The translations under genes were made by a program, and so were the position numbers. Shown here piece after piece: positions 174 through 28,520 of a stretch of 64,000 nt of DNA. The notes under the pieces were generated by a model that made no database searches, was not told where the DNA came from, and worked only from the letters and a program-made list of their open reading frames with translations. Source of the stretch: Paenibacillus pabuli (GTDB lineage Bacteria; Bacillota; Bacilli; Paenibacillales; Paenibacillaceae); the NCBI RefSeq assembly GCF_023101145.1, contig NZ_CP073714.1, positions 4,278,001 through 4,342,000 of the forward strand, read 5' to 3'. Numbering within the stretch: position 1 is the stretch's first letter; each line of letters begins with the position of its first letter.

Positions 174-2441
174 TTACCGCGCCTTCTCAACACGAGCAAT
201 AAGTTCTTGAATCACATCGTCAGGCGACCGATCAATCATCCAATTTTGCCCAAACATCTGGAACAATTTCACTACAGGGAAGTCCTCCCAGAATCCGACG
301 AATTCTTCGTTTAGATAAACCTTGTCCGTGACATGCTCGTTCATTTCATGCAGGGACTCTTCTAACACTTTTTTTGCCACGGAATCGCTCAACCATTCGC
401 TTAGCAGGCTGAACTTGTGAAACGTGACTTCTTCCTTTCCAAAGTTGCAATGCAAACGTTCCGTGATCCGGATGTCTCTGGATGAGCTGCCCAGTGCGAT
501 TTGGAAAAAGCCACTCTCTGCAACCCAACGGTTATACTTGGTGTTGTAGTATGAGAAGTCTCTCTCTTCAAGCTCGAAGACGATTCTGCGCTTTTCGCCC
601 GGCTCAAGCTCGATTTTGGCAAAAGCTTTTAGTTCCTTCTCCGGACGGGTCCAGCTGCATTCCTCATCGTGCACATACAACTGAACAACTTCCTTTCCTT
701 TTCGCTTGCCCGTGTTTTTCAGTTGAAAGGACACCGTAACCCCTTTATTCACTTGAGCTACTTCGAGGTCCGTATATGAAAACGAAGTGTAGGACAAACC
801 ATGACCAAACGGGAATTGCGGTGCAAGTTCTTTACGATCGTAATATCGGTAGCCTACAAATAGACCTTCGCGATAATACAGTTTGCCGTTTTCTCCCCGA
901 ATCCGCATATGGGACGGGTTATCCGACAACTTCACAGGGAAGGTCTCGGATAATTTGCCTGACGGGTTCTCCTGTCCAAACAATACTTCTGCGATGGCTC
1001 TCCCCATGCCTTGGCCCGACAACCAAGAATGAACAACACCAGGCACAAGCTGCACCCATGGGCGCATGACAAGAGCAGAGCCACTGCTTGTCACCACGAT
1101 GCACTTAGGCTGAACCGCTGCAACCGCCTGAATCAACTTCACTTGATGCTCCGGCAGATCGATGCTCTTCAGATCGCGCATCTCCGATTCGGCATATTCC
1201 GGTTGGCCAACGAACAGGACTGCCACGTCGGAATTCATGGCCAAAGATACACTTTCTTTAATCAAGTCTTCCTGAATAGAGTCATCCTCCGGGTAACCTT
1301 CAGCGTAACCCAATGTTACCGAGGCTCCGGCCAGCTCCTTAATTTCATCCCAAGGAATGTCAACTCTAGTAGGGGTTACCTTTGCACTGCCCGCCCCCTG
1401 AATTCGCGGTTTCTTGGCAAACCGTCCAATCACGGCAATTGACGAGATCGAATCCGACTGCAGCGGAAGAATCGCGTTTTCGTTTTTCAGAAGGACAATA
1501 CTTTCGACTGCCGCTTTACGTGCAAGGGCATGATAGTTTTGATCTCCGTAAGAGTCTGTGGCTTGGTTGCTCGTCACCCGCTCGACCAGCTTCAAAATGC
1601 GGGCAACACTCCGATTCAGCTGTTCCTCGGAAAGATTCCCGTTCTGAATGGCTTCAACGATCGCTTTCGTATTGTAATGAGCAGGACCCGGCATTTCAAG
1701 ATCAAGTCCAGCCTTCAGGCCGCGAATCCGGTCATTAACGGCAGTCCAGTCGGACAGAACAACACCTTCGTAACCCCATTCTTCTCTCAAAATGTCATTC
1801 AGCAGATGTTCATTCTCGCTTGTATACGTTCCATTTAACAAGTTATAGGAACACATCACCGTCCATGGATCAGATTTTTTGATGATACGTTCAAAAGCAC
1901 TTAGGTAAATTTCGCGCAGTGTCCGCTCATCTATCTCCGAACTGGTTACCATTTTCTCAAATTCCTGATTGTTACCAGCAAAGTGTTTGAGTGAAGCTCC
2001 GACCCCCTCGCTTTGGATACCGTTAATGAATGATGCACCGAGTTCACCCGTCAAACATGGATCTTCCGAGTAGTACTCAAAATTTCTTCCGCCAAGCGGT
2101 GTTCTTTTCATGTTAATTCCCGGTCCGAGCAGTAACTCGACATCCATGGCCTTCGATTCACGACCTAGCGCGACTCCAACATCATACATTAATTCTGTAT
2201 TCCAGGAGGAGCCTATCGCAGAACCCGTAGGGTAACAGGTCGCGGGAACGTTCTCTGTTGTGATGCCCATTTCTTCGTCACTGTTCGTTTTACGGATCCC
2301 GTTAGTTCCGTCATACATATGAACGGGCGGGATATTTAACCGCTCAATTCCTTTGGTCATCCACATATTTAATCCTGCGCAGATGGAGGCTTTTTCGTTA
2401 AGAGTCATTTCCGTCAGCAATTCATTAATCGATTTGTTCAT
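174..2441 (-). CDS. Glycoside hydrolase family 3, cytosolic beta-glucosidase
   Basis: A 755-residue family 3 glycoside hydrolase without a signal peptide. It probably removes terminal glucose (or another beta-linked sugar) from imported oligosaccharides. The N-terminal barrel carries KHFAGNNQE (152-160) and the nucleophile motif LSDW with Asp231. An alpha/beta sandwich follows, then a fibronectin-III-like domain (about 560-650), and an extra helical tail of about 80 residues that resembles tails on other enzymes in this window. The start has AAGGATG upstream. The gene lies 19 bp after a PTS EIIC gene on the same strand, and a terminator follows it. The pairing is odd because PTS sugars arrive phosphorylated, while GH3 enzymes normally cut unphosphorylated glycosides. 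The second GH3 of the window matches without gaps through residue 231, so they are paralogues. Exact substrate is not visible. Confidence 0.93.
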   Translation of the reverse strand: MNKSINELLTEMTLNEKASICAGLNMWMTKGIERLNIPPVHMYDGTNGIRKTNSDEEMGITTENVPATCYPTGSAIGSSWNTELMYDVGVALGRESKAMDVELLLGPGINMKRTPLGGRNFEYYSEDPCLTGELGASFINGIQSEGVGASLKHFAGNNQEFEKMVTSSEIDERTLREIYLSAFERIIKKSDPWTVMCSYNLLNGTYTSENEHLLNDILREEWGYEGVVLSDWTAVNDRIRGLKAGLDLEMPGPAHYNTKAIVEAIQNGNLSEEQLNRSVARILKLVERVTSNQATDSYGDQNYHALARKAAVESIVLLKNENAILPLQSDSISSIAVIGRFAKKPRIQGAGSAKVTPTRVDIPWDEIKELAGASVTLGYAEGYPEDDSIQEDLIKESVSLAMNSDVAVLFVGQPEYAESEMRDLKSIDLPEHQVKLIQAVAAVQPKCIVVTSSGSALVMRPWVQLVPGVVHSWLSGQGMGRAIAEVLFGQENPSGKLSETFPVKLSDNPSHMRIRGENGKLYYREGLFVGYRYYDRKELAPQFPFGHGLSYTSFSYTDLEVAQVNKGVTVSFQLKNTGKRKGKEVVQLYVHDEECSWTRPEKELKAFAKIELEPGEKRRIVFELEERDFSYYNTKYNRWVAESGFFQIALGSSSRDIRITERLHCNFGKEEVTFHKFSLLSEWLSDSVAKKVLEESLHEMNEHVTDKVYLNEEFVGFWEDFPVVKLFQMFGQNWMIDRSPDDVIQELIARVEKAR

Positions 2442-2460: not shown

Positions 2461-3693
2461 TCAGTTTTGTTCCTGTTCCTTTTTCAGTTCTTGAGCATCA
2501 TATAGTTTGAAAAACGGGAACCATACAACGAATACAATTACGAGGATTATCGCCAGCAAAATGAGTCCGTTGACGCCGGACATAATGTAGGTGGACAGTC
2601 CGATTGGCGTATACCACAATTGAAAGATTTGGCTCGGAATTCTTGCAAAACCCATATCTAACGCCAAATACACAATAATCGGCGTGATCAGTCCGTTGAT
2701 CCACATCGGTACCATGAGAAGCGGATTGAAAGCAATCGGTGCTCCGTACACAACTGGCTCGTTAATATTGAACAAGGAAGGGATAATGGTCGCCTTGCCG
2801 ACAGACTTTAATTTTTTCGATCTTGCCAACAGGAACCAGACGACGAGTGGCAAGGTTGCACCCATTCCTCCAATACCAAGCCAGCCGGAGAAGAAAGTTT
2901 CGAAGGTATTAATATTGACTGGATCTTGTCCTGCCGCGACGAGAGCGGCATTCTCTTCGATTGCGGGTATCCATATGGCGTACCAGATCGGTGTCATGAC
3001 CCATGGACTTACGCCGAAGGAATACAGGACAACACCGATGAAGTTAAATAATACAAACCCAGTCAGGCTTTGACCCATGGCATTGATGGGTTCAAACACG
3101 CTTACGATCAGTGCAAAGATATCGAAGTGAAGCTGGTATACGAGCAACCATCCAGAAGTTAACACCAAAGCAATAGGGACGAGAAAGTCGAACCAATCCA
3201 TGATGAATTCGGGAAGAGATGATCCTTTTTTGAAAAATGAGAATTTATTGCATACATTCATGACAACTGCAACAAATACCCCCACCAAGAGCGCCGTAAT
3301 CATACCGGAAGGACCAAATCGTTCAAGGATGAACTGAATGGTTCCATCTTCATTCACGCTCGGATTTAGAAGCATAACGAACAGGGAGACCCCTGACATT
3401 CCCGCAAGCAGCTTAATTTTGTGGCGATCCTTTTTTTCCATAACTACATATGGCGTCAAAAAAGCAATAAACAGACCCAATAAACCAAAACTGAATGTCG
3501 TTATGGGTGTCAGATCCGGCATTCCCGGAATGAAATCCTGCAAAATCGAAATTAATGTAATGATCGAACCGATAAAAATCATCGGGATAGCGACCATGAT
3601 CGCTTCTTGAATCGACGAAACCCAAATATTGTTCGTAAACGCCTCCAATCTGGGCGCAAACGATTCTGTCATCCATTTCATAAAACGCTTCAT
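2461..3693 (-). CDS. PTS EIIC subunit, cellobiose/lichenan (CelB/LicC) family
   Basis: A 410-residue polytopic membrane protein, the sugar-translocating EIIC of the lactose/cellobiose PTS family. It has about ten hydrophobic segments and the family loop FNINEPVVYGAPI around residue 310, which forms part of the sugar site. It starts MKRFMKWMTESFAPRLEAF, as expected for this family, and has a GGGGGAG ribosome binding site. No EIIA or EIIB gene lies nearby, so it must borrow them from elsewhere or work in an unusual way. The next gene is a GH3 hydrolase, not a phospho-glucosidase. A cre-like site lies 53 bp upstream of the start. Likely substrates are cellobiose or other beta-glucan disaccharides, inferred from family and neighbours. 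Confidence 0.9.
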   Translation of the reverse strand: MKRFMKWMTESFAPRLEAFTNNIWVSSIQEAIMVAIPMIFIGSIITLISILQDFIPGMPDLTPITTFSFGLLGLFIAFLTPYVVMEKKDRHKIKLLAGMSGVSLFVMLLNPSVNEDGTIQFILERFGPSGMITALLVGVFVAVVMNVCNKFSFFKKGSSLPEFIMDWFDFLVPIALVLTSGWLLVYQLHFDIFALIVSVFEPINAMGQSLTGFVLFNFIGVVLYSFGVSPWVMTPIWYAIWIPAIEENAALVAAGQDPVNINTFETFFSGWLGIGGMGATLPLVVWFLLARSKKLKSVGKATIIPSLFNINEPVVYGAPIAFNPLLMVPMWINGLITPIIVYLALDMGFARIPSQIFQLWYTPIGLSTYIMSGVNGLILLAIILVIVFVVWFPFFKLYDAQELKKEQEQN

Positions 3694-3745
3694 CCAAACT
3701 CCCCCTAATTTCCTCTTAGCTGCTATAACTAAAGTATAAAGTTAT

Positions 3746-3761
3746 ATGTTAACGCTTTCTT
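3746..3761 (-). promoter_or_regulatory. cre-like catabolite repression site upstream of EIIC
   Basis: ATGTTAACGCTTTCTT matches the CcpA consensus WTGNAANCGNWNNCWW except for T at position 5. The same deviation occurs in the sites before the GPH symporter, GH78 and the 1,691-residue protein. CcpA is the likely binder; a LacI-family relative is the alternative. Confidence 0.6.
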
Positions 3762-3847
3762 GTTGTAACTTGCCGCATCTTGGTTCGTTTTTTGTCCTCT
3801 TCATGCCTTTAGTTCTATCTTGTCTGAATCTGTTGGAATTAAACAAC

Positions 3848-3882
3848 AAAAAACACCCCTTCCTTACGGAAAGGATGCCTTC
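3848..3882 (-). terminator. Terminator after the AraC-GH39 gene
   Basis: On the minus strand GCATCCTTTCC and GGAAGGGGTG form an imperfect stem around GTAA, followed by TTTTTTGTTGTTT. It lies about 20 bp after the stop codon of the AraC-GH39 gene. Confidence 0.75.
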
Positions 3883-3903: not shown

Positions 3904-6429
3904 TTAGTACTGCCGATCGAGGGTAAGCAGCGTTATACCATGTGGCGGGAGCAAAATTTCTCTGCGCCAATGTTCACCTTGCACGATTTCTGAGCGGATT
4001 ACCGGACCACTTCTGCCGTCTAGATAGGAGATCTCTTCTGCCGTTAAAGAATCTGGTGAGCCCATACGGGTCCACTCGTCAAATACCGATCCGTGCTCCC
4101 GATCCAGCTGATAACTGGTGCATTTATACGTTCCTGACAGCATATGTAGCGAAAGTTCGAATGCCTTGATTCCTTTTTTCTCAAACACGTCATAACGCGA
4201 TGAATCAGATAATTCCGACCAATCGCCACTCGCAAACAGCTGATCTACATGTACGTAGTGATAGAACAGGAACTGCATGCTTCCGTCACTTTTTCGAGTT
4301 CCGACATAACCGTTTCCCTTTACAAGCAGCTCGTCCCCCAGCTTTTGCATTAGCTCAAACGCATAATACACCGGCTTTTTCAGCCCGTCACGATTCATCA
4401 GACCAAAACCTCCATAGAACGGAGAAGCAGGAACGATGCTTTCTTCGAATACGTCAGTAAAGGACCAGAAAGCCATCGCCTTTACGTCGCCGAGCGTATT
4501 CATGGTTTGGTAGATAACAAAAGGAGCCATAAACATCGTATCGTGCAGTAAGTTTCGGTCATACAGTGAAAAATTCCACTCCGTCACATGAAGCTCAACA
4601 TGGCCATACGATGACGCAATCATTTTTTCCCGTAAACGTTCAATGCTTTCCTTATAAAAAGTAGGCGGCATAATCTTCGTCAGACGATCTTCATCACTTT
4701 TAAGTTTCGGATACTCCGAATAAATATGGAACGAAAAGAAGTCAAGGGGCACCTCACGCTTTTGGCAATATGTCAAAAACTCTTCAGTCCAAGTATCGTT
4801 CCAGAGAGAGCCGTATCCCATGGCCGGGCCTCCCGTTTTCAGTTCGATCAACACGGATTTGATGGCACCAACGGTGGATTCATAAAAAGCAAAGTATTCT
4901 TCCTTGCTCCCTGCCCAACAGACTCCTGCCAGGTCAGGCTCGTTCCACACCTCGAAATACCATTTCTTCACTTCTTGCGCTCCATATCGATTCAAACAAT
5001 GGCGAATGAATTCACTGACAAGTGCTTCCCAGCGGGAGGGATCGGAGGGTGGACTGATATTCCCTTTCCACTGAAATATCGTTTCATTGGACCTCGCGAG
5101 TAGGCTCGGCATGAAACTTAACTCCACAAATGGCCGGATCCCCTGATCCAATAGGAAATCATAGAGCTTGTCCACGTAAGACCAATTGTAGACTGGTGTT
5201 CCATCCTCATTCTCGCTGTACACCATCATCTCATCATTGAATATGCCATGAAACCGGATGTAACGAAACGGAATTCGTGCCCTCAATTCGACCAGCTGCC
5301 TCCGCCAATCTTCGCGCAAACCTTCTGCAGCTCTGCCCGCAGTCATGGTAATATTCCAGTGTTTCTCATAAACAACTGTACTGTGGTCTTTCCGTATCTC
5401 AATCAGGTGCTGCTCTTCCATCAGGGATTTCGTTGGTGGAAGCAGCACCTGCTGCGTTCCCGTTTTTTCGTCCAAATACCGATACAACGATCCCATCGCG
5501 TTTAACGTGTCCATCTCATAATAATCTCCGCTTGAAGATTCCTCGTACGTTTTGGGCTTTCGGTTCTGGTTTGGATTGGGTGATTCTGGCGCGAGCGAAG
5601 CTTCGCGGTAGGAGCCGGGCGTGCAGCCGTACTTTTCTTTGAAGTATTTGTTGAACAGCTTAACATTGGCGAAACCGCAATCCAGCGCGATTTCCGAAAT
5701 TTTCTTCTCGCTCCCTGCCAGTTGAGCCTGGGCTTTCTCCAGGCGAATGAGCGTCAAGTATTTTTGGAAGGGGATTCCGATTTTATCAGTAAAAAAATGG
5801 GAGAAATAATGCAAGCTCAAATGCTCGGAAGCAGCCATGTCTTGCAACGTAATCTTCTCACTGTAGTGGCCGTCAATGTACGCAAGAACCCTGTTTAGTC
5901 TTTTATAATCGTACTCCTTGCTGCTCTCCTCTGCATCCAGATTCGTCCCATCGGAAAAATATCGTAAAAGGCATCCACATAACGTCTGCAGTCTGCCTAT
6001 CGTGTAGCTTCGATAACCCTTCGTTTTTTTGTTGATCTCCCATACCATTTGGGCGAGGTTTTGTTTGATGCTAGTTAAACGTAATTGATCTCCTTCATTA
6101 TTCAGAGCAGAATTGCAAGAGATAAACGCATTAGTGTTCAGCAATTCCGGACCGAACTGCAATGTCAGAAGTACATTGTCTTGATTGGTCCGTTCAATCT
6201 TATGGACAGACATGCTATTGACCACAATAACATCATCTTCATGAAGCGTGTACTGCTTTTGATCCAAATACATGAGGATTGAACCTTGAAGGACATACAC
6301 AATTTCAACTTCCTTATGCCAATGAAAATCAACATGTTTCACGCTGTTTACAAAGAGCTTCATGGGTAGGTCGTCCTGATGCTGTATAAACTCGTATAGA
6401 TAACGAATCGACTTCTCCTCCCCTTGCAT
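3904..6429 (-). CDS. AraC-family regulator fused to a GH39 hydrolase domain
   Basis: One cytosolic polypeptide joins a transcription regulator to a glycoside hydrolase. The order is an N-terminal cupin-like sensor (HWHKEVEIVYVLQGS), a pair of AraC helix-turn-helix motifs ending in GCTPGSYREA, a short linker, then a GH39 (beta-xylosidase family) domain of about 500 residues. Both GH39 catalytic glutamates are present: acid/base in EVWNEPD and nucleophile in VTEWN. The domain may therefore still bind or cut a sugar. The start is uncertain. The ATG used here (6429) has no ribosome binding site and lies 7 nt past a TATAAT, so it would be leaderless. A strong GGGGAGGAG lies 6 nt before an in-frame ATT at 6408, where homologues, as I recall them, begin. 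Further in-frame starts (ATG 6489, TTG 6519) lack support. A terminator follows. EIIC-GH3 next door is a plausible target. Confidence 0.9.
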   Translation of the reverse strand: MQGEEKSIRYLYEFIQHQDDLPMKLFVNSVKHVDFHWHKEVEIVYVLQGSILMYLDQKQYTLHEDDVIVVNSMSVHKIERTNQDNVLLTLQFGPELLNTNAFISCNSALNNEGDQLRLTSIKQNLAQMVWEINKKTKGYRSYTIGRLQTLCGCLLRYFSDGTNLDAEESSKEYDYKRLNRVLAYIDGHYSEKITLQDMAASEHLSLHYFSHFFTDKIGIPFQKYLTLIRLEKAQAQLAGSEKKISEIALDCGFANVKLFNKYFKEKYGCTPGSYREASLAPESPNPNQNRKPKTYEESSSGDYYEMDTLNAMGSLYRYLDEKTGTQQVLLPPTKSLMEEQHLIEIRKDHSTVVYEKHWNITMTAGRAAEGLREDWRRQLVELRARIPFRYIRFHGIFNDEMMVYSENEDGTPVYNWSYVDKLYDFLLDQGIRPFVELSFMPSLLARSNETIFQWKGNISPPSDPSRWEALVSEFIRHCLNRYGAQEVKKWYFEVWNEPDLAGVCWAGSKEEYFAFYESTVGAIKSVLIELKTGGPAMGYGSLWNDTWTEEFLTYCQKREVPLDFFSFHIYSEYPKLKSDEDRLTKIMPPTFYKESIERLREKMIASSYGHVELHVTEWNFSLYDRNLLHDTMFMAPFVIYQTMNTLGDVKAMAFWSFTDVFEESIVPASPFYGGFGLMNRDGLKKPVYYAFELMQKLGDELLVKGNGYVGTRKSDGSMQFLFYHYVHVDQLFASGDWSELSDSSRYDVFEKKGIKAFELSLHMLSGTYKCTSYQLDREHGSVFDEWTRMGSPDSLTAEEISYLDGRSGPVIRSEIVQGEHWRREILLPPHGITLLTLDRQY

Positions 6430-6825: not shown

Positions 6826-8172
6826 TTAATTTGTCTCTTCGTAAATTGCATCCATTAATATTTTCTTGGCTGTAGCGCCATTGTCGAAGTAATCAAACAT
6901 TGACATACTCCCCCAATCACTGAAATCAGGAGCCCAATACCGGATCCCTATCAGACCGTGTGTTTTTCCCCACTCAATCACATCATGATAGATAGCAGCT
7001 TGTCCCTCTTCATTATGTGGGTAGCCCTTGACGGTCTTGGACCATCCGGCATATGCGCCCTGCACTTCACCTGAAGGATAAGAAAACTCGGCGATATATA
7101 CAGGAATACCTACCTGTTTGTTAATGGCAGTAACGATTTTTTTGTACATAACCATTTTATCAATGTATACTCCTGGCGCGCTAGGATAAAAACTGATACC
7201 AGCAGTATCAACTGGGAATCCATTTTCCTTTAACGTCTTGAAATATGTGACTGCTGTATGAACGGTTGTGACTACGGTTGCGATGTGAGTTGAAAACTTG
7301 ACCTTACTTGAATCAAGTCCCAAATTCTCGTAAGCATTTTTAATTCCTTTAGCAACTGAAGCCATCTGTACTGCATTGTATTTCCATATATTTTTCTTGA
7401 GCCAGTTGGTACGCATGACAGAATAGACATGCCTCATAAAACCCGGAACTTTTTCAAGTTTTTCGTTTACTGCGGTTTTCAACCCGATGCTTACTCCTGC
7501 AAAACCATAGTTAGCTTCATTACCAATGTTCCAGTTCTCTACGGTAGCACCCGTTTTCAAAATTTCGGTAGCAACAAACTCGCCGTAAGCCTCCAGAACG
7601 ACGTTCATTTCACCCAATGTTAATTCTGCCCACTGCTTGCCTTTTTGCAAGGCGCAGATCTCGGGATATTCTTCGAAGTCAGGAGCTTGTTGCCGGTCCA
7701 TATCCATATAAGTGTAAGCAAGCATGAGTTCAGGGTTTAATGGTATTTTTAATTTCGCTGCCATTCGGGCCAACTCTAATCCCTGTTCTAAAGTGTGGTA
7801 ATTAGCATTTGAATCTTCCTCACCATTCACCATGTTATCTGCAGTAGGATATCTTTTTGTCGCAATTCGAGCGTACATCTCCGTGGCACCCGATGAAATG
7901 TATATTCTTTCTAAATCCTCTCTGTTATTCGCAGTTAAATTCCCGGCAGCGTAAGTGTAACCTTTCTGAAATGCATTTCCCGAAAATGGGCTCACCGAAA
8001 GCGCTACGCGAAAGTTTTCAGTACTTTTGGCAGGTACGTAATTTTCATCTTCAACATACACTGATAAATTTCTTACGATAACGCCTGCTACGATTAGAAC
8101 AATGATAAGTACAGAGATTATGATTTTTGTTCTTGTTCTCGTATGCTGCAATAACCATTTTAGTTTGTTCAT
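6826..8172 (-). CDS. Membrane-anchored GH53-like glycoside hydrolase
   Basis: A 448-residue protein with one N-terminal membrane segment (about 16-36) after a basic patch and no clear cleavage site, so the rest is probably held outside the membrane. The barrel resembles clan GH-A and, at its C-terminal half, family 53 (endo-beta-1,4-galactanases). WNIGNEANYG supplies a putative acid/base Glu, and VYIAEFSYPSG supplies the nucleophile Glu followed by the Tyr-Pro seen in GH53. GYPHNEEGQA, RYWAPD and a final FDYFDNGATA also fit GH53. The N-terminal half lacks the WNDP signature of classic GH53 enzymes, so this is a divergent member or sister family. It starts 13 nt after GGGAG. It stands alone, divergent from the TetR gene. 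Substrate is unknown; galactan-like polymers are an inference only. Confidence 0.7.
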   Translation of the reverse strand: MNKLKWLLQHTRTRTKIIISVLIIVLIVAGVIVRNLSVYVEDENYVPAKSTENFRVALSVSPFSGNAFQKGYTYAAGNLTANNREDLERIYISSGATEMYARIATKRYPTADNMVNGEEDSNANYHTLEQGLELARMAAKLKIPLNPELMLAYTYMDMDRQQAPDFEEYPEICALQKGKQWAELTLGEMNVVLEAYGEFVATEILKTGATVENWNIGNEANYGFAGVSIGLKTAVNEKLEKVPGFMRHVYSVMRTNWLKKNIWKYNAVQMASVAKGIKNAYENLGLDSSKVKFSTHIATVVTTVHTAVTYFKTLKENGFPVDTAGISFYPSAPGVYIDKMVMYKKIVTAINKQVGIPVYIAEFSYPSGEVQGAYAGWSKTVKGYPHNEEGQAAIYHDVIEWGKTHGLIGIRYWAPDFSDWGSMSMFDYFDNGATAKKILMDAIYEETN

Positions 8173-17642: not shown

Positions 17643-20372
17643 CTAGGAGGCATTGAGCATTTGAATGACTCTTCTAAATAACTGTTCGGTCTCCTCAGGC
17701 GTATTGACCAGCATTTCGCTTACAGATAAATCATAAGCATATTGGATCATAGGGTGATCCAGCATACCGGGAGCGTGCTCGTTTAACATTCGAACTGCTG
17801 TGGGTTCTTCCACAATCTCTTTGAGTGTGGAATCCATCGTAAACCGTTCTCTTTCGAGACTGATTTGCGTCGCATATTCGAAGCTGTAAGATCCGGAACC
17901 AACCTCCACAGGCACAGGTTTCTCAGGCAGTACAATAATTGCGGTTGTATTTGCTGGTATCGTTACATTTACAATAATGTTACCCGCCCTGCATGACCAA
18001 GAGCTTTTTATCTCTCCGTAGACCGAATCAAAAGCAGCATCTACCGAACTGATTCCTCGGATGAATTGAGGTTTTATTAGAATCTTCTTATAACCTGCTT
18101 CAAGTGAATTAATTCCCGCGAGTTTTCTGTACATCCATTCACCAATGGATCCATAGGCGTAATGATTCAAGGAATTCATACCTGATGTATCGAAATCACC
18201 ATTAGGCAGAATGGAATTCCACCGTTCCCATATCGTGGTAGCCCCTTTTTTTACGGCGTACAACCAAGATGGGAAATCCTCTTTCAGAAACAAGGTACCA
18301 GCAAGGTCATGCAGGTCATTGTCTGATAAGGCATGACACAGATATGGAGTACCAACAAATCCTGTCGTGAGATGGTTTTTATGTTTCGCTATATTGCTCT
18401 CAAGCGTCTTCCGGATTCGATCCTTGTATTTTTCCTCAGCAAGGTTGAAGTGTAGAGCTAACACGCAGGCCGTTTGAGTTTCGCTGACCAGTCTGCCAGA
18501 TGAAGATATATATTCTGCATTGAAAGCCTGTTTGATCTGGCTATGCAATTCTTCGTAACGGACGGCATCTTCGGTTTTATCCAGAAGCTTGGCTGTCTTT
18601 GCAACGAGTTCGGTCGAATACGCATAATAAGCGTTTGCTACCAGATAAACATCTGTAGCCCCTGTTCTTTCGTTACTAATCTCCTCTTTGTCCAACCCTA
18701 ACCAGTCCCCATATTGATAACCAGTCTGCCATAATCCATTGGCTCCACAACGTGCAGTAATATAATCAATCCACCCCTTCATGCTGTCGTATTGTTCTCG
18801 CAGCAATCGAAGGTCTCCATAGGTTTGGTACATGACCCAAGGGACAATAACAGCGGCATCGCTCCAGGCAGCGGCACCTTCCTGATTCCCAAGAATGTTA
18901 GGAACGACATGGGGAACCCCATATTCCTCCGTCTGTTCAGAGGCAAGATCGCGCAGCCATTTCTTGAAGAAGGAAGCAACATTCATATTGAACGCAGCGG
19001 TCCCGGCAAATACTTGTGCATCTCCTGTCCACCCTAGACGCTCGTCTCTTTGAGGGCAGTCCGTCGGTATATCCAGAAAGTTACCTCTTTGGCTCCACTG
19101 AATGTTGCTTTGCAGCTGGTTCACCATGGCATTGGAGGTCTCGAAACGGCCTGTTTCCTCCAGACTTGAATGCAGCACGCAAGCTGTGAATTGATCGAGC
19201 TGGATCTCATCTACCCCTTCAATGGCGATATACCGAAATCCATGGAAAGTGAAATGAGGGCGGAAAATTTGATCTTTACCGTTACAGATTAATCGATCAA
19301 TCGATACTGCCTGCCTTAACGTATCCGGATAGAAATTTCCCTCCTTATCAAGAACCTCAGCATGCCGTATGGTTATCGTTTGCCCTTTCCGCCCTTTGGT
19401 TCGAAGCTCTACAAACCCAGTAAGGATTTGCCCGAAATCAATGACACATTCTCCTTTTGGGGTTGTAATCAACTGAAGGGCAGAGAGCCTTTTTGTGATT
19501 TTGACAGATTCACTTTCCTGAGCAACAAGGCGATTTTTATCGAAAGAGGCGGTTTCCACATGGAAGGACTGACTTTCATGAAAACAAGAATCATAAGTCT
19601 CACCCATGTAAATTTCACTTGAACGGATGGGTCCGGTAGTCACCTGCCAGGTTTTGTCGGTTGCAATGATCTCTTTTGTTCCATCCGTATAGACAATGTG
19701 GATTTCCGCGAGTGCAGCAACTCTATCTCCGTAATGGTTGGGAGTACAAGTAAAACCAAATATGCCTTTATACCAGCCATTCCCCACTGTAATCTCTATT
19801 TTATTCTGGCTCTCCAGCATCCCGTCCAAACGGTAAGTCTGATACTGCAATCGCTCGTTGTAATTCGTCCATCCAGGTGCAAAGTAGTCTTCTCCTACTC
19901 TTGTCCCATTGATCGCAATTTCATAAACACCGAGGGAAGTGGTATAGATTCGGGCTTGCTGAATTTCCTTTTCGACAGAGAATTCTTTGTAGAAAACGGG
20001 TGGAGCACTTTCTTCGCTCGGGAATGGATGTGTAATCCACTCTGCCTGAAAGTTGCTGCCGTTCAGCAACCCGGTCTCAAAATGTCCTTCCATGACTGCG
20101 TGATTACCTTGGTTATCCCAAACTTCGACTTGAACCTGATACAAAGTCGAGGCCTGTAAACGAGGACCAGCATATTCCACTAAAACGGAGACGTCTTCAT
20201 CCCTCTTTCCAGAATCCCAGATTTTCTGCAAATCTTGTGTGACACTTATTCGGTAAGCAGATTGCATTACGTTCTGTTCAGTAGAACCTAATTTCCATGA
20301 GAATCTTGGGTTTACTGTGTCCAGTCCAATCGGATTAAGCATGTATTCAATCCGGAAATCTTTTAATTCCAT
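17643..20372 (-). CDS. Alpha-L-rhamnosidase, glycoside hydrolase family 78
   Basis: A 909-residue cytosolic enzyme that releases terminal alpha-L-rhamnose by inversion. It has the usual order: N-terminal beta domains (1-330), an (alpha/alpha)6 barrel with the family signature DCPQRDERLGWTGDAQ, and TTIWERWNSILPNG with the second acidic residue. A beta domain follows, then a tail of about 64 residues not needed for GH78 activity. This tail (MDSTLKEIVEEP...) resembles the N-terminus of the SDR and the tails of the GH3 enzymes here. ATG at 20372 is chosen for GGGTGG seven bases upstream. It diverges from an AraC regulator gene, and shares its promoter design with the GPH symporter and second GH3. 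Likely natural substrates are rhamnosylated glycosides or pectic fragments. Confidence 0.93.
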   Translation of the reverse strand: MELKDFRIEYMLNPIGLDTVNPRFSWKLGSTEQNVMQSAYRISVTQDLQKIWDSGKRDEDVSVLVEYAGPRLQASTLYQVQVEVWDNQGNHAVMEGHFETGLLNGSNFQAEWITHPFPSEESAPPVFYKEFSVEKEIQQARIYTTSLGVYEIAINGTRVGEDYFAPGWTNYNERLQYQTYRLDGMLESQNKIEITVGNGWYKGIFGFTCTPNHYGDRVAALAEIHIVYTDGTKEIIATDKTWQVTTGPIRSSEIYMGETYDSCFHESQSFHVETASFDKNRLVAQESESVKITKRLSALQLITTPKGECVIDFGQILTGFVELRTKGRKGQTITIRHAEVLDKEGNFYPDTLRQAVSIDRLICNGKDQIFRPHFTFHGFRYIAIEGVDEIQLDQFTACVLHSSLEETGRFETSNAMVNQLQSNIQWSQRGNFLDIPTDCPQRDERLGWTGDAQVFAGTAAFNMNVASFFKKWLRDLASEQTEEYGVPHVVPNILGNQEGAAAWSDAAVIVPWVMYQTYGDLRLLREQYDSMKGWIDYITARCGANGLWQTGYQYGDWLGLDKEEISNERTGATDVYLVANAYYAYSTELVAKTAKLLDKTEDAVRYEELHSQIKQAFNAEYISSSGRLVSETQTACVLALHFNLAEEKYKDRIRKTLESNIAKHKNHLTTGFVGTPYLCHALSDNDLHDLAGTLFLKEDFPSWLYAVKKGATTIWERWNSILPNGDFDTSGMNSLNHYAYGSIGEWMYRKLAGINSLEAGYKKILIKPQFIRGISSVDAAFDSVYGEIKSSWSCRAGNIIVNVTIPANTTAIIVLPEKPVPVEVGSGSYSFEYATQISLERERFTMDSTLKEIVEEPTAVRMLNEHAPGMLDHPMIQYAYDLSVSEMLVNTPEETEQLFRRVIQMLNAS

Positions 20373-20410
20373 GAGATGACCACCCTTCAACATAGATCTC
20401 ACACACCTAA

Positions 20411-20470
20411 ATGTTAACGCTTACTAAAATATCATAAAGAATTTCCCTCATACAATATGGTAATATCATT
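20411..20470. promoter_or_regulatory. GH78 promoter: ATATGGTAA box, -10 and cre, shared with AraC gene
   Basis: The box AATATGGTAATATCATT (20454-20470), TATGAT (20436-20431) 21 bp after minus-strand TTACCA, and cre-like ATGTTAACGCTTACTA (20411-20426) 39 bp before the GH78 start. In the other direction a TATAAT (20478-20483) lies just past the box, before the AraC gene, so the regulator may also control itself. Confidence 0.7.
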
Positions 20471-20525
20471 GTAATTTTATAATTTTGATGTGATAAAATG
20501 ATTGAAAAAAGGAGTCAAACACAAA

Positions 20526-21749
20526 ATGGATCTAAAACGTCAATGTAAACTCATTGCAGAACTTTTTGATATGTCCATCTTCTTTGTAAGCTCCACCGGA
20601 GAGGTTCAATTCGAACTGATGGGTAATCGAATACTTAATCCGCTGTATAAAAATGATAAACAATTCTTTTTTTCAGTGTTGGGGTTTGATCCATCCGTGT
20701 GTAAAGAAGATCCTTCAATTGTAAGAACGATGTTTTTTGAGAACTACATTTTAATTCGTATTGGTAACGATCTGAACGATGAAGGAACCATCATTTTAGG
20801 ACCTTCCCTTCCATTTAGCTTGAGTGAACATAAAATAAATGGGCTCATTAATGACACACATCTCTTTGCCAACCGGGAACAAGTATTTCATTATTATCAA
20901 TCTGTTCCTGTGATACCTCATGAGAGGCTAATCAACATCACGATCTTGGTTAATCAAATGTTTAATCACGAATTGATCGAAGCTGAGGATGTAGTACAGG
21001 ACTATTTGCGCGGTATTCATATCAAGGAAAAAGAAATACAAGGTTCCATAAATTCTTCAAAAGGCTATGATGAGACGCTCCATCACAACCCGCTAAATGA
21101 AAAGAAATTGTTAACGATCGTTAAGGAAGGTAAATTGGATATGCTCAAACACTTTACACAACTTGGTCATGAAAATACAGGGGTCCTGTCCAAATCAAGT
21201 CATATCCGTTCTAAAAAGAATCTTGGCATCATCGGTATAGCACTTGCAGCCAGAGCAGCCATTGACGGGGGGCTTTATTCGGAGATTGCTTTTTCGGTAA
21301 GTGATATTTACATACAGCGCCTCGAGGATCTACGAACCGATAAAGAAATCGATCAATGTTGCTTGGAAGCATTTTTTTCGTTAACCGAGAAAGTCTCTCA
21401 GGTTAAAGAATCACAGCATTCTAAAATCGTAACACTTTGCAAAAATTATATATATAACCACCGTTATTCCAAGATTACACACGAAGAAATTGCTGAACAT
21501 GCTGGTATTAGCCCAAACTATCTGTCTGTGCTATTTAAAAAAGAAGTTGGGATTCCCGTGAATGAATATATTCAACAGATCAAAATTGAGGAAGCTAAAC
21601 ATATGATTCAATTTACGAGCACGCCACTTTCTGAGATCGGGTCTCTTTTGGGTTTTACGGATCAGAGTTATTTCACCAAAATCTTCAAAAAACACACAGG
21701 TAGAACCCCGAAGCAGTATCAACAAACGCATCATATGATACAGGAATAA
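20526..21749 (+). CDS. AraC-family regulator of the rhamnoside genes
   Basis: A 407-residue regulator. The last 100 residues hold two AraC helix-turn-helix motifs (HEEIAEHAGISPNYLSVLFK; LSEIGSLLGFTDQSYFTKIF) and the family ending HTGRTPKQYQ. The first 300 residues are a sensor of no family I recognise; it has no membrane segment, so it should detect a cytosolic sugar. ATG at 20526 has GGAG 11 nt upstream; a TTG eight codons earlier is less likely. It is divergent from GH78, and the same 17-bp box precedes GH78, the GPH symporter and the second GH3. The box overlaps the -35 region, as expected of an AraC activator site. The stop codon lies inside the terminator stem. Confidence 0.9.
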   Translation: MDLKRQCKLIAELFDMSIFFVSSTGEVQFELMGNRILNPLYKNDKQFFFSVLGFDPSVCKEDPSIVRTMFFENYILIRIGNDLNDEGTIILGPSLPFSLSEHKINGLINDTHLFANREQVFHYYQSVPVIPHERLINITILVNQMFNHELIEAEDVVQDYLRGIHIKEKEIQGSINSSKGYDETLHHNPLNEKKLLTIVKEGKLDMLKHFTQLGHENTGVLSKSSHIRSKKNLGIIGIALAARAAIDGGLYSEIAFSVSDIYIQRLEDLRTDKEIDQCCLEAFFSLTEKVSQVKESQHSKIVTLCKNYIYNHRYSKITHEEIAEHAGISPNYLSVLFKKEVGIPVNEYIQQIKIEEAKHMIQFTSTPLSEIGSLLGFTDQSYFTKIFKKHTGRTPKQYQQTHHMIQE

Positions 21750-21772
21750 GCCCGGGCTGCGACGGGCTTATT
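21745..21772. terminator. Bidirectional terminator between AraC and GH3 genes
   Basis: AATAAGCCCG and CGGGCTTATT form a perfect 10-bp stem around GGCTGCGA. It overlaps the AraC stop codon and lies 20 bp past the GH3 stop codon on the other strand. Confidence 0.75.
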
Positions 21773-21791
21773 CTAACGATGCATCATGCAT

Positions 21792-24038
21792 TCAACGGTT
21801 AACAGCGGATAAGATAGTCTGTAGTGTTTCTTCTGTGAACTGACCGCCACTCATAAGTGCTGCATTGTGCAATGTGGTACCCATAACTAATTCCTGCATT
21901 CCCTCACCCAGTCCTGCTTCATTCCCGTCATATTGCCCCATCGCACCCATAATTTCAGCTCCAACGGGATGCTGCAGTAATTCACCGAATGTGGAATGCC
22001 TGGTAATTGGTTTGGTAACAATAACGCTCGATTCTACTTCTATCGTCTCAACAAGTTCAATCTCTCTTGAAGATTTTCCGACCATAATGTCGAATTTACC
22101 CGTCTCCACATGCCAGTCTTTCAGCTTAACATCGTAGTAAGCAAAAGCTCTTTTGTCCAGTTCAAAATGTACGGTGGTCTCTTCACCAGGCTGAAGTGAG
22201 ACTTTGGTGTACCCTTTCAATTCCTGAAGTGGACGTGGGACCGTTGATTCCACATCACGTACATATAGCTGAATAGCCTCTTTGCCCGCTGTTTCACCCG
22301 TGTTTTTTACTTTTGCTGTAACCGTTACACTGCTGGTATCTTTGATCTGTTTATGACTAACCTGTAGATCACGATATTCAAATTGGGTATAACTCAAACC
22401 GAAGCCAAATGGAAACAAAGGTTCCACATCTCTTGTATCGTAATGACGGTAACCTGTAAAAATACCTTCTCGATATTCGGCAGTCTCGCCGTCTCCAGGG
22501 AAATTCAAGTACGACGGATTGTGAATCAGTTTTTTAGGGAATGTCTCAGCCAGTTTTCCGCTTGGATTTACGCTTCCAAAGAGAATATCAACGATTGCAC
22601 CGCCCAAAGCCTGTCCTCCAAGGTATGCCTCCAATACAGATTTAACTTTATCAAGCCAAGGCATTTCAATGGGACCTCCGTTGCTTAATACAACAACAAT
22701 ATTCTCTTGAACCTCCGCGACTGCTTCAATTAAAGTTCTGTGACTTTCCGGCAATTGAAGGTGTTTCCGGTCGAAACCTTCAGACTCATAACGTTCAGGC
22801 AGCCCGGCAAATATCACTGCAACCCGAGCATTCTTTGCGGCAGCTACTGCTTCTTGAATGAGTTCTTCGTTTACAACATCTTCGTCTAATCTATAACCGG
22901 CGGCATACGAGATGCTTGCACTGTCAGTGGCTGTTTTAAGGATTTCTTCATAGATGTTATCCAGCTTCGTCGGCATAATGTGTGAACTACCACCGCCCTG
23001 GTAGCGTGGTTGTTGCGCAAATGCTCCGATAACCGCGATGGAATCTTCAGTTTTTAGAGGGAGAATGTTCTCTTCATTCTTAAGCAGGACCATACATTCA
23101 CTTGCAATCTTTCTGGCCAACTGGTGCTGTGCCTCTACATCAACCGATACTGACTTCTGCTGGCTATCTACAGTTTTGAATACAAGTGACAACAATCTGT
23201 CAACAGACTGATCCAGCACCTCTTCGCTCAGCTTTCCCGATTGAACAGCCTCAATCATTTTCTTGCATCCTATTCCGTTGCTGGAAGGCATCTCAAGGTC
23301 CAGACCGGCAGCTAGCCCCTGATCCCGTTCATTGACAGCCCCCCAATCCGACACCACTACGCCTGCAAATCCCCATTCTTCCCGGAGAATTTCAGTCAGT
23401 AACCGGCTGTTTTCGGAACAAAAGTCACCATTAACTTTGTTGTATGCGGCCATGACAGTCCATGGCTCTCCCCCTTTCACTGCATATTCAAAGCTAGCCA
23501 GATAAATTTCCCGCAAAGTCCGTTCGTCGACCACCGCATTAACTGACATTCGCTTATACTCCTGGTTGTTTACAGCAAAATGTTTGATGGACGTACCCAC
23601 GCCTTGGCTTTGTACGCCATGAATATAGCTAGCTGCCAAAGTTCCCGATAAATAAGGATCTTCAGAATAATATTCAAAATTTCGGCCGCATAACGGGGAA
23701 CGCTTGATATTCACACCAGGACCCAAAACAATGGAAATATCCGCTGCCGCTGCTTCTTGTCCAATTGCTTTCCCCATCGTATGGGCAAGTTCACGATTCC
23801 ACGATGAAGCAACTCCACTTCCGGATGGGAAGCAGGTAGCTGGTATACTTTTGTTTAAGCCTAAGTGATCCGCACTCCCCTCTTGTTTTCTAATGCCGTG
23901 AGGGCCATCTGTCATCATAATAGAGGGAATCCCAAGGCGGTCGATGGATAGGGTGTTCCAGAAATCTTTACCTGAGCATAGTTCTGCTTTTTCTTCCAAT
24001 GTCATTTGACTGATCATTTCTTTCAAATTAGGATTCAT
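21792..24038 (-). CDS. Glycoside hydrolase family 3 beta-glucosidase, second copy
   Basis: A 748-residue cytosolic GH3 enzyme, a paralogue of the one at the left end of the window. Residue numbering is identical through the active site: KHFAVNNQE at 152-160 and nucleophile Asp231 in VSDW. It has the same barrel, sandwich and fibronectin-III-like order, then a 68-residue tail beginning [13 protein letters not shown] that belongs to the shared helical module. ATG at 24038 is preferred because GGAGGAG lies four bases upstream. Its promoter carries the ATATGGTAA box, a -10 and a perfect cre site, linking it to GH78 and the GPH symporter. It probably removes glucose or xylose left after rhamnose removal. 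Confidence 0.93.
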
Positions 24039-24067
24039 TCGCTCTCCTCCGTTGGTAAACATTAATA

Positions 24068-24127
24068 ATGTAATCGGTTACTTCATAAGAGTAGAGCAAA
24101 TGACCCTGAATATATGGTAAGATCGTT
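24068..24127 (-). promoter_or_regulatory. Second GH3 promoter: ATATGGTAA box, -10 and cre
   Basis: Box TATATGGTAAGATCGTT (24111-24127), TACTCT (24093-24088) 21 bp after minus-strand TTACCA, and ATGTAATCGGTTACTT (24068-24083), a full match to the cre consensus, 30 bp before the start. Confidence 0.7.
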
Positions 24128-24360
24128 TTCTTTTTGGAAAAATGATATGTTATTTATGTTGTGTGAACTCCGTAAGTGCAAACATGATCTCTGCTTCATA
24201 AACCCATTCATGAATACTCCAAAAGATTGACGAAATAGATCATACGGTTGCCGTCAATCCTCCTTTTATATGTTTAAAGAATTTCTCGAGAGAAGCCTCT
24301 TTCTTGAATGTTCCCTTTATCGAACTCTTCTGTTCTCTTCGTTAATTGATTTTTCTTATG

Positions 24361-24456
24361 TTAGAGAACCAGATCTCTGGCCTTAATGTCATCAATATTC
24401 TTCTCCCCTTCGTCTGTTTGAACCTTAGTTCCTGCTGTAAAGCAATTAAACGCTTT
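24361..24456 (-). pseudogene. Pretoxin-Hint domain remnant of a polymorphic toxin
   Basis: A stop-bounded 31-codon frame encodes NCFTAGTKVQTDEGEKNI followed by DDIKARDLVL. This is the hallmark start of the Hint autoprotease domain that precedes the toxin tip in polymorphic toxins: catalytic Cys, then TAGTxVxTxxGxxxI. Nothing before or after it continues the domain, so it is a relic. A SUKH-type protein, the usual partner immunity family, lies 1 kb away on the same strand. Confidence 0.65.
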
Positions 24457-24505
24457 CTAATGGCGTTATCTGTTATTTTGCCACCTTTTTAAGAGGGCTA
24501 CGTTA

Positions 24506-24540
24506 AAAATCCCCCCTTTTATTTCATAAGGGAGGATTTA
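24506..24540. terminator. Hairpin in the remnant region, possible terminator
   Basis: AAATCCCCCCTT and AAGGGAGGATTT pair around TTATTTCAT with one bulge. It lies between the Hint and MATE fragments and probably belonged to one of the lost genes. Confidence 0.45.
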
Positions 24541-24641
24541 AAACTAACGATTCAGAATCTTCACAGAACATTTTGTCATCGTCATAATCCAGATGGGAAG
24601 CAATGTACTTATATCCCTGCCTTCAGACAAAACAAGTATAG

Positions 24642-24878
24642 CTAGGTGATTTGTCCTGCGAGCGACACGGCCGCCATTGCCGATTGACTCATCATACCTA
24701 ACATGATCACATCAACAGATATCACCGTTGCTGATATTAGATTCTGTAATGCAATGGGGATCACAAGCGATATTAACTCTCGATTAAAGTCGCGTTTGCC
24801 GAAACCTTGAAGTTGCTGCGTTTTCTCACCTGTATCTGTCCTCTCGGTTGTTTTCAATAATATAAGAATAGGATACAT
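24642..24878 (-). pseudogene. MATE-family exporter, N-terminal fragment
   Basis: The 78-codon frame ends in RELISLVIPIALQNLI, then SATVISVDVIMLGMM and SLAGQIT, which is the first membrane helix and loop of a MATE multidrug exporter. A full MATE protein is about 450 residues, so some 400 are missing and no continuation is seen downstream. It is a truncated relic. Confidence 0.75.
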
Positions 24879-24914
24879 TGATTGTTATTTCCATCAATAT
24901 TGGCTATATTTTTA

Positions 24915-25145
24915 TTAATATCGTGTTCTTTTGTGCAAAGAAGGGATTCTCAATGACAGATTTAGAGGTGTTCTCTGATTTCCTTCTGTATCAAAGACCG
25001 TAATTTTGATAAAACAACTCTCGATCGTTTCAAATGAATCTGTTTTTATTACACGTTCATAAGAGCCCTTAACCACCTTGTACATTTCTTCTGAAATGGA
25101 AGAATGAACGTAAGCAGCATCGCTTGCACATACAATAAGAGTCAT
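24915..25145 (-). CDS. Small hypothetical protein, possibly a fragment
   Basis: A 76-codon frame beginning MTLIVCASDAAYV. I do not recognise it. A GGAGG lies upstream but too far from the ATG; the frame is open further up without a standard start codon. It sits in a patch of broken genes and may be a relic. Confidence 0.3.
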   Translation of the reverse strand: MTLIVCASDAAYVHSSISEEMYKVVKGSYERVIKTDSFETIESCFIKITVFDTEGNQRTPLNLSLRIPSLHKRTRY

Positions 25146-25427
25146 CGTTTTGTCGAAGTCCTGAATTCGACGTTATGACCTCCATATTTTAGTATGTCCT
25201 GTTTGTCCTTTGGATTGAGATCACTATCTTTATTTACACACTTTATAATATATATTTAATAAGCGTTTAAAAAAAGAGATTTATCGTGAGTTGCCTGTAT
25301 GATTGTGTGATCTCTCTCTACAAAGCAAGATTAAAATATGTAACTGGTTTCATGTCAATATTTTTTTGAATTTAACATGAATATCGTCCCATCGCCGCCG
25401 CAAAAGATTATTGCATAGTCTATCCGC

Positions 25428-25925
25428 TCATTCTAGTACTATTGAATTGGACATGATACGTTGCAAAAAATCATCTATATGGTCTGCGACTTTGGTGACT
25501 TCTTCAAATTCAGGTTCTTCTCCGCGCACAATTGAACCTATCTCGTTAAACAAATCAATCGCGTAGAACGAATATCCTCCATGAACAGAGATGACGATTG
25601 GCAGGTAATGATCCCACCATGTCTTAATCTCTGATGACCATTGATCATCTCCAACTGCTGCTTCCAAGCAGAGTAATTCAAATTCATTCCATCGAAACGC
25701 CGTATCTGCGCTATGATTATATTCATCTTCACACAGGAACCATGTCTGCTCACTAGATGAAATACATTGTTTTACAACACGTAATAATTCTAAATATTGA
25801 TCAGGAATGGTGTTGTATCTGATCCTCACATCCAGATCTAAATTTAAATCACGATCTGTTTTGGAGCTGATTGTCCAACCGTTGGTTTCAGCCCAGGTCA
25901 GAAATTCATAGAATTTACTTTTCAC
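25428..25925 (-). CDS. SMI1/KNR4 (SUKH-type) protein, probable immunity protein
   Basis: A 165-residue soluble protein. Its C-terminal half (SVHGGYSFYAIDL, then GSIVRGEEPEFEEV and a closing helix) fits the SMI1/KNR4 or SUKH superfamily, whose bacterial members mostly neutralise toxins delivered by neighbouring cells. GTG at 25925 is chosen over an ATG 28 codons upstream because AGAAGG lies close by and the extra residues look non-coding. A Hint-domain relic lies 1 kb downstream on the same strand, so this may be an orphan immunity gene kept after loss of the toxin. Confidence in the family is moderate. Confidence 0.65.
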   Translation of the reverse strand: MKSKFYEFLTWAETNGWTISSKTDRDLNLDLDVRIRYNTIPDQYLELLRVVKQCISSSEQTWFLCEDEYNHSADTAFRWNEFELLCLEAAVGDDQWSSEIKTWWDHYLPIVISVHGGYSFYAIDLFNEIGSIVRGEEPEFEEVTKVADHIDDFLQRIMSNSIVLE

Positions 25926-26071
25926 TGTGCGCCTTCTTTCTCCAAATATTGTACAATCTGAGAAATGAATATATTCGCTCGGGTGAAGAAACAATAGAAC
26001 CGCATTCAAGAGGAATTACGCCCTATTTTAAAGAATGAGTTTTTCCAAGTTCAAAGGCCTTGTACCCATAA

Positions 26072-26100
26072 AATAAAGCCGCTAAAACAGCGACTTTATT
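26072..26100 (-). terminator. Terminator of the bglP-bglA-bglG operon
   Basis: AATAAAGTCGCT and AGCGGCTTTATT pair around GTTTT on the minus strand, followed by TTATGG. It lies 48 bp past the stop codon of the antiterminator gene. Confidence 0.75.
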
Positions 26101-26147
26101 GGGGATATATTTTGCTATCTACATGCATGAGACAACAACACTTTGAA

Positions 26148-26999
26148 TTATGATCGTCCATCATCACCTTGCTCCTCTTGCACAATTCGAGCAATGTGAA
26201 TGATTAAATACAATAATTCCTCGTTTGATATGGAGATATCCAGCATGTTTTGCACGTAGGTTTTGATCATCTCCGCGCATTTGTATTCAAGCGGATGCTC
26301 CTTCACCATGTGTTCAAATATAAAATCTTTTGCCGAATTGCCCAAACGACCTTCTTGTAAACGCTGGATGAAAAATTGCAGGTGCGTAACTAGTCTCACA
26401 TAGTGGATAGAATTTTTGTTCAATTGCATATCAAAGGTGTATTGAATCAGATTAAAAATATCTTTTAACATTTTAACGGATTGCATCGTGCGTTCCATAT
26501 TCTTCTCATGTGTTTGGGCATTCACGAAATGAAAGGCGATATTCCCTGCTTCTTCTTCCGGCAGTTCAATATGAAGTTCCTGATTCAACATATGGACTGC
26601 TTCAAGGCCCAGTTCGAATTCGACGGGATGAAACCGCTGGATCTCCCACAACATGCGATTCTGTAATGCTACACCTTTTTTCCATCGTTCAATGGCAAAC
26701 GACAAGTGATCCATAAGCGTAAAGAAGATTTGATCGTCAAGAGACAGCTTTTCTTTGGCATTGGAAATCAGTTTGTTTATGACATTCACATATTTTTCTG
26801 GCATGTTTTCGATGGTGCGTACGTAAGCCTGGGCAGACGGATTATTTTGCAGAATGAATCGTTTCTGGATGTGCTCCTCATCGAGTCGCTCGCCGACTTT
26901 GCCTTTGAATGCCAAGCCTTTTCCCATGACAATCACTTCTTGTCCATGTTCATCTTTGGTTAGAAGCAAGCTGTTATTCAATATTTTGATTACTTTCAT
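26148..26999 (-). CDS. BglG/LicT-family transcriptional antiterminator
   Basis: A 283-residue RNA-binding antiterminator. Residues 1-55 (MKVIKILNNSLLLTKDEHGQ...VMGKGLAFKGKVG) are the co-antiterminator RNA-binding domain. Two PTS-regulation domains follow, with the histidine-containing segments THLQFFIQRL in PRD2 and LMDHLSFAIERW in PRD1. When beta-glucosides are taken up, it should bind the RNA hairpin before bglP and block the overlapping terminator. The start at MKVIKI is dictated by the family; a longer frame upstream overlaps the GH1 gene. It is the third gene of the bglP-bglA-bglG operon, 17 bp after the GH1 gene. Confidence 0.93.
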   Translation of the reverse strand: MKVIKILNNSLLLTKDEHGQEVIVMGKGLAFKGKVGERLDEEHIQKRFILQNNPSAQAYVRTIENMPEKYVNVINKLISNAKEKLSLDDQIFFTLMDHLSFAIERWKKGVALQNRMLWEIQRFHPVEFELGLEAVHMLNQELHIELPEEEAGNIAFHFVNAQTHEKNMERTMQSVKMLKDIFNLIQYTFDMQLNKNSIHYVRLVTHLQFFIQRLQEGRLGNSAKDFIFEHMVKEHPLEYKCAEMIKTYVQNMLDISISNEELLYLIIHIARIVQEEQGDDGRS

Positions 27000-27016
27000 G
27001 CATTCATCACGATCCT

Positions 27017-28489
<1,473 letters not shown>

Positions 28490-28520
28490 TCAAAATATAT
28501 AATGTACCGTATTAAGGCTG

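Follow-up and report, generated by a model that had tools for sequence, protein, structure and literature searches.

Trigger enzymes such as PutA, a flavoenzyme, combine an enzyme and a DNA-binding regulator within a single polypeptide chain. Regarding AraC-type regulators and GH39 glycosidases, an AraC-like domain on some GH39 xylosidases is mentioned in the accessible part of one methods section, where it was removed before alignment (PMC8543862), and a Klebsiella gene named both AraC and GH39 is described, in the available excerpt, as suspected to be active on pNP-xyloside (PMC4730625). AryK is reported to have a virulence role in S. aureus, and the terms "xylosidase" and "glycosyl hydrolase" are absent from the accessible portion of that paper (PMC3922988). 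In the open-licence literature no tested function was found for an AraC-GH39 fusion, which does not by itself prove that none has been described.

The window analyzed here, a stretch of 64,000 nucleotides from Paenibacillus pabuli (contig NZ_CP073714.1, positions 4,278,001 to 4,342,000), contains one such fusion, whose residues are numbered throughout from the ATG at 6429:

3904-6429, minus strand: AraC-GH39 regulator gene, 841 codons plus stop counted from ATG 6429
6133-6330, minus strand: AraC_binding/cupin domain, residues 34-99 (Pfam), with H36, H38, E42 and H76
5602-5838, minus strand: HTH_18 DNA-binding domain, residues 198-276 (Pfam, E 2.1e-19)
3994-5409, minus strand: GH39 domain, barrel plus C-terminal beta strands, residues 341-812 (Pfam Glyco_hydro_39, E 2.6e-97)
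4939-4941, minus strand: codon of the acid/base glutamate E497, in the motif WNEPD
4579-4581, minus strand: codon of the nucleophile glutamate E617, in the motif VTEWN

The open reading frame is real and its stop lies at 3904, matching the initial annotation, which had described an AraC regulator fused to a full GH39 domain; this description is borne out by Pfam, which identifies the cupin, the HTH and the GH39 domain. The HTH scores 70 bits against an HTH_18 cut-off of 33.6, which places the protein among AraC/XylS regulators, and the hydrolase part 327 bits against a Glyco_hydro_39 cut-off of 26, which places it in GH39. No anti-sigma domain of the RsgI type was detected in the regulator by Pfam, the AraC HTH being present instead. 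A secretion signal is absent on inspection by eye, and the protein is likely located in the cytosol. In the AlphaFold2 model (mean pLDDT 85) the best PDB matches of the GH39 half are GH39 enzymes (Foldseek E 1.2e-46, TM by target 0.88), while residues 281-302 and 322-336 of the linker between HTH and GH39 fall below pLDDT 50, and because this stretch is poorly modelled no signal path is visible between both domains.

In the alignment E497 and E617 coincide with the two glutamates of 2BS9, a GH39 xylosidase of solved structure, so that the proposed retention of both catalytic residues holds as well. The nine -1 subsite positions, which we take to be those of the T. saccharolyticum xylosidase (TsXynB), correspond in the regulator to R392, H394, N496, E497, H568, Y570, E617, W655 and E663; by alignment, all nine are identical in 2BS9, and all are invariant in 26/26 orthologs (25 plus the window) sampled from the 62 proteins of alignment A1. 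Among the 350 barrel columns, 100 are invariant in this sample and contain the nine pocket residues (hypergeometric P 9.7e-6), a value that says merely that the pocket is not decaying here, since the nine sites are family-conserved and were chosen beforehand. Mean identity over the 25 orthologs is 0.67 for the GH39 barrel, 0.70 for the HTH and 0.60 for the cupin, that is, the barrel is conserved about like the HTH and more than the cupin, whose motif HxHxxxE...H is retained in the sampled sequences. D499, C504 and F515 are found in 27/27 ortholog rows, the same positions being N, F and L in 18/18 stand-alone GH39 rows.

The GH39 part is matched in 27 of the 75 genomes of the genus and in 174 of the 394 genomes of the family, counts that include paralogs and stand-alone copies, and most relatives among the matches listed have open frames of ~840 codons. 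Matches in many genomes thereby support the earlier statement that AraC-GH39 fusions exist in Paenibacillus, where they are widespread. Named fusion relatives belong to Paenibacillus, Bacillaceae, a Tissierellia bin, Clostridium, Treponema bins and a Fusobacteriaceae bin; the fusions of L113, L117-L119 and L122 lie in Clostridium, in Treponema and Spirochaetaceae bins and in a Fusobacteriaceae bin, with an ABC permease downstream of the fusion at L117. The regulator frame is broken in L157, L168 and, among the 48 named ortholog loci L064-L111, in L082, L092, L095 and L108. At L157 (4349-6839) and L168 (3756-6309), GH39 frames lie directly 3' of separate AraC-like frames, and these two are probably frame-broken fusions.

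Downstream of the regulator, the same strand carries these elements:

3848-3877, minus strand: terminator-like hairpin with a T run, 3' of the regulator (by eye, from sequence and alignment)
3750-3795, minus strand: 46-bp operator-like block with two direct half-sites 22 bp apart (ungapped alignment and genome pattern search)
3748-3761, minus strand: cre-like site AGAAAGCGTTAACA (from sequence)
3734-3739, minus strand: -10-like TATACT of the EIIC promoter, conserved in alignment
2461-3693, minus strand: orphan PTS EIIC of lactose/cellobiose type (profile matches, PF02255 search, alignment)
174-2441, minus strand: GH3 beta-glycosidase (Pfam and solved-structure match)

Among solved structures, the GH3 is matched best by a beta-glucosidase. 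A GH3 gene follows the regulator on the same strand at 48/48 of the named ortholog loci and an EIIC gene at 45/48, the loci without EIIC being L098, L100 and L101; an MFS_2 transporter (Pfam) comes after the GH3 at L098, and a similar ORF is found there at L101. In five Bacillaceae orthologs the GH3 is placed first. At more distant named loci the EIIC and GH3 pair is absent, except that L114 and L120 have both and L115 has the EIIC, while the sequence of L112 ends too early for either gene to be judged. The EIIC-GH3 operon is the probable target of the regulator. Upstream of the regulator, 6826-8172 (minus strand) encodes a GH53-like protein, which was considered as a partner and rejected, no homolog appearing in the flanking sequence retrieved for other loci. 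Elsewhere in the window, 17643-30479 holds an alpha-L-rhamnosidase, an AraC gene, a second GH3, a PRD antiterminator and a glucose-type EIIBCA PTS, and 33462-38537 and 49658-54130 (minus strand) encode very large proteins, one with Golvesin_C repeats and the other with SLH, GH16 and several CBMs.

The operator-like block reads RCAAAAAACGAACC-N7-GGCAAGTTACAACAAGAAAGCGTTA, followed by TATACT, and lies between the hairpin and the EIIC. It is ungapped in 26/26 aligned intergenic regions (25 of the 48 loci plus the window), with 24/48 columns conserved at 90% or more versus 16/108 before it and 7/54 after it. Its matrix scores 72 bits in the window, and the core pattern, allowing up to 3 mismatches, occurs in this genome at one site, the known one. 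Weaker matches of 11 bits, with a repeat pair of the same 22-bp period, are present at L098, L100 and L101, preceding the transporter gene rather than EIIC in L098 and L101 and occupying a like place in L100. No match above 10 bits was obtained in 33 of the 36 other loci scanned, including the five Bacillaceae orthologs, where a similar pair 22 bp apart is seen before the GH3 by eye only. Since the matrix matches few other loci, and since three groups of paralog gaps carry other conserved words, a single operator for the whole family was rejected. At the -35 position the EIIC promoter matches poorly with TTGACA, which we take as the -35 consensus, and is overlapped by the cre-like word, assigned on what we presume to be the cre consensus; such a poor -35 would suit an activator.

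Against TIGR00410 (lactose/cellobiose PTS EIIC) the EIIC scores 164.7 bits, below the cut-off of 236, whereas by PF02378 it is assigned to its family. Profile search gave no PTS_IIA (PF02255) match in this genome; the domain is also absent from 36 of 40 ortholog genomes, chosen from those found, and present in four, including the nearest relatives tested (G055 and G056, one gene each). The eight EIIB (PF02302) matches in this genome belong to other systems, and the EIIC may be served by a partner from another PTS system. In 76/76 distinct sequences compared, the EIIC has Ser at the position of His250 in solved ChbC, presumably a functionally important site, and alignment with ChbC indicates that it retains the Glu of NINE. 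It may transport sugar without phosphorylation. Because PF02255 is missing and at L098 MFS_2 replaces the EIIC, an unphosphorylated ligand is suggested, likely a beta-glycoside. Two fused paralogs are found beside glucose-type PTS genes and a GH1, namely L140 (756-6722), without both catalytic glutamates, and L141 (1821-6947), without the acid/base glutamate in a poor alignment; from these two cases only, it is suggestive that catalytic glutamate loss goes with such neighbors.

Architecture, active-site residues, gene order and the DNA block are conserved, and for the regulator we infer DNA binding, activation, ligand class and turnover. With evenly balanced confidence, we propose a local activator of the EIIC-GH3 operon that senses sugar mainly through its GH39 domain and uses this domain to cleave its inducer slowly. 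A short unphosphorylated beta-glycoside, most likely a beta-xyloside or beta-glucoside, would enter via the orphan EIIC and occupy the -1 pocket of GH39, this occupation being the sensing event; the AraC part would then grip the two direct half-sites beside the weak -35 of the EIIC promoter. The pocket, if still that of a working retaining glycosidase, would cleave the inducer slowly, resetting the signal once supply ends, with bulk hydrolysis being done by the GH3. The suggestion in the initial annotation that the enzyme part could destroy the inducer, or sense the sugar as a bound intermediate, is plausible and partly supported.

A bolder and rather doubtful alternative is a turnover-coupled factor, whose active state would be the glycosyl-E617 or the Michaelis complex, and which would report substrate flux and reset by hydrolysis, the family then spanning from active enzyme-sensors to dead AryK. 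The AryK family (NF047455) is over its cut-off in 11 of the 398 genomes of the class; the regulator scores 164 bits against the cut-off of 850, and is not an AryK equivalog. Both catalytic glutamates are missing in 12/12 AryK rows (L180-L191, with L191 below the family cut-off), and in L182, the AryK tested, Pfam finds the HTH alone. The AryK C-terminal half aligns with stand-alone GH39 over 440 columns (probability 99, E 8e-18) and the AryK model has GH39 enzymes as its 12 best structure matches; judging from alignment and model, this half is a decayed GH39 fold. Counting against a strict catalytic requirement, fusions that lack the catalytic centre are retained elsewhere in the family.

Such losses bear as well on a rival explanation, unlikely but deserving weight, in which GH39 is a sensor only and the same residues bind sugar with negligible turnover, as reported for the GH10 domain of RsgI6, which retains binding with very low activity according to the accessible part of its report (PMC4711584). 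The GH3 of the operon could then supply hydrolysis. By column, both glutamates are present in 57 of 79 non-redundant fusions, one or both being missing in 22; of the 57, 51 have 9/9 pocket residues, four have an R replaced by K, L118 has an H replaced by P, and L194 has both glutamates but misses the rest of the pocket and was counted as lost, resulting in 56 kept and 23 lost. On the contrary, stand-alone GH39 rows keep 9/9 pocket residues in 20/20 cases (including 2BS9, L157 and L168; without the latter two, 18/18 have both glutamates). Selection on catalysis therefore looks looser in fusions, and catalysis appears dispensable in parts of the family, since the GH39 domain has lost its centre in other members. 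Losses are undercounted because strongly decayed members score under the search thresholds. L196 and L204, which have no intact catalytic centre, were dropped before the tree together with L056, L082, L092, L108, L179, L206 and L209 as duplicate, cut or broken; the resulting 141 names were reduced to 99 rows by removing near-copies (identity of 85% or more), and on this tree, obtained by a quick search and with long branches, the catalytic state changes at least three times, the placement of L046, L137 and L122 being uncertain. In L154, L171 and L175 the nucleophile position is occupied by Arg and the GH3 still follows in 3/3 (at L154 GH3 and MFS_2 by Pfam, with downstream ORFs starting alike at L171 and L175), so that the gene arrangement can persist with a dead centre. 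What argues against a sensor without turnover is the acid/base glutamate, which should be dispensable for binding alone but is invariant in 26/26 sampled orthologs and still present in fusions with as little as 31% GH39 identity.

Quite improbable, to our mind, is a bifunctional protein in which the cupin senses and GH39 is an intracellular beta-xylosidase joined for co-expression. The cupin could be the sensor instead of GH39, since its motif is kept, and the regulator gene itself is the sole match to its GH39 domain in its own genome. Nonetheless, other members retain decayed GH39 halves at close to their full length, for which there would be no need if the domain were just an enzyme, and the regulator would be made sparingly, as we infer from its rare ATT start:

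6406-6408, minus strand: probable true start codon ATT, codon 8 (aligned ortholog start position, where the coding signal begins)
6415-6423, minus strand: ribosome-binding site GGGGAGGAG (from sequence, position conserved)

GGGGAGGAG sits 6 nt upstream of ATT 6408, with its GGAGG core 8 nt upstream, while no ribosome-binding site was found upstream of ATG 6429, whose position is ATA in P. taichungensis (L064). Aligned start codons in 57 distinct orthologs with the motif (sites in L022-L081; 3 further orthologs had none) are ATT in 30, ATC in 5, ATA in 1, ATG in 18, TTG in 2 and GTG in 1, that is, ATT/ATC/ATA in 36/57 and ATG/TTG/GTG in 21/57. Of the 36 former rows, 15 lack an in-frame ATG, GTG or TTG between the upstream stop and the start, 13 carry, three codons before the start, a GTG overlapping the ribosome-binding site, and eight have other upstream starts, a few of them with a weak binding site. 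Over 32 sequences, the first, second and third codon positions show variabilities of 0.04, 0.009 and 0.27 in the 14 codons 3' of the ATT position, and 0.37, 0.36 and 0.31 on its 5' side. Translation thus probably starts at ATT 6408, not at ATG 6429. Many ortholog rows also have an in-frame ATG 15 codons downstream, with AGGA 10 nt before it, which could be used as an additional start; from its sequence, the stretch between the ATT position and this later ATG is clearly coding.

A chance fusion, a sequencing error or a misannotation has practically no likelihood, being ruled out by full-length open frames in many genomes and by shared invariant residues.

If the proposed activator, sensing and slowly cleaving its inducer through GH39, is correct, it would be a one-component regulator with an apparently intact glycosidase as sensor and a single-site operator at hand. 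Since its family holds intact and decayed versions, when such a regulator needs catalysis can be asked directly, and the GH39 link gives a structural identity to the AryK C-terminal half. With PutA the regulator shares an enzyme and a DNA-binding regulator in one chain, although its enzyme part is a predicted glycosidase and not a flavoenzyme. AryK (NF047455, named from Staphylococcus) resembles it in joining an AraC HTH to a C-terminal half of GH39 fold, but AryK rows are without both catalytic glutamates, which the regulator keeps. The fold, both glutamates and the nine pocket residues are common with the GH39 beta-xylosidases 2BS9, 1W91 and 1PX8, whereas in the regulator GH39 sits behind an AraC module; the architecture noted in the accessible part of PMC8543862 is this same AraC-like plus GH39 one, with no function given there. 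Finally, the anti-sigma factor RsgI6, according to the available portion of its description (PMC4711584), uses a glycosidase domain as carbohydrate sensor, as proposed here, but there the domain is a GH10 in the extracytoplasmic part of an anti-sigma factor and its ligand a polysaccharide.
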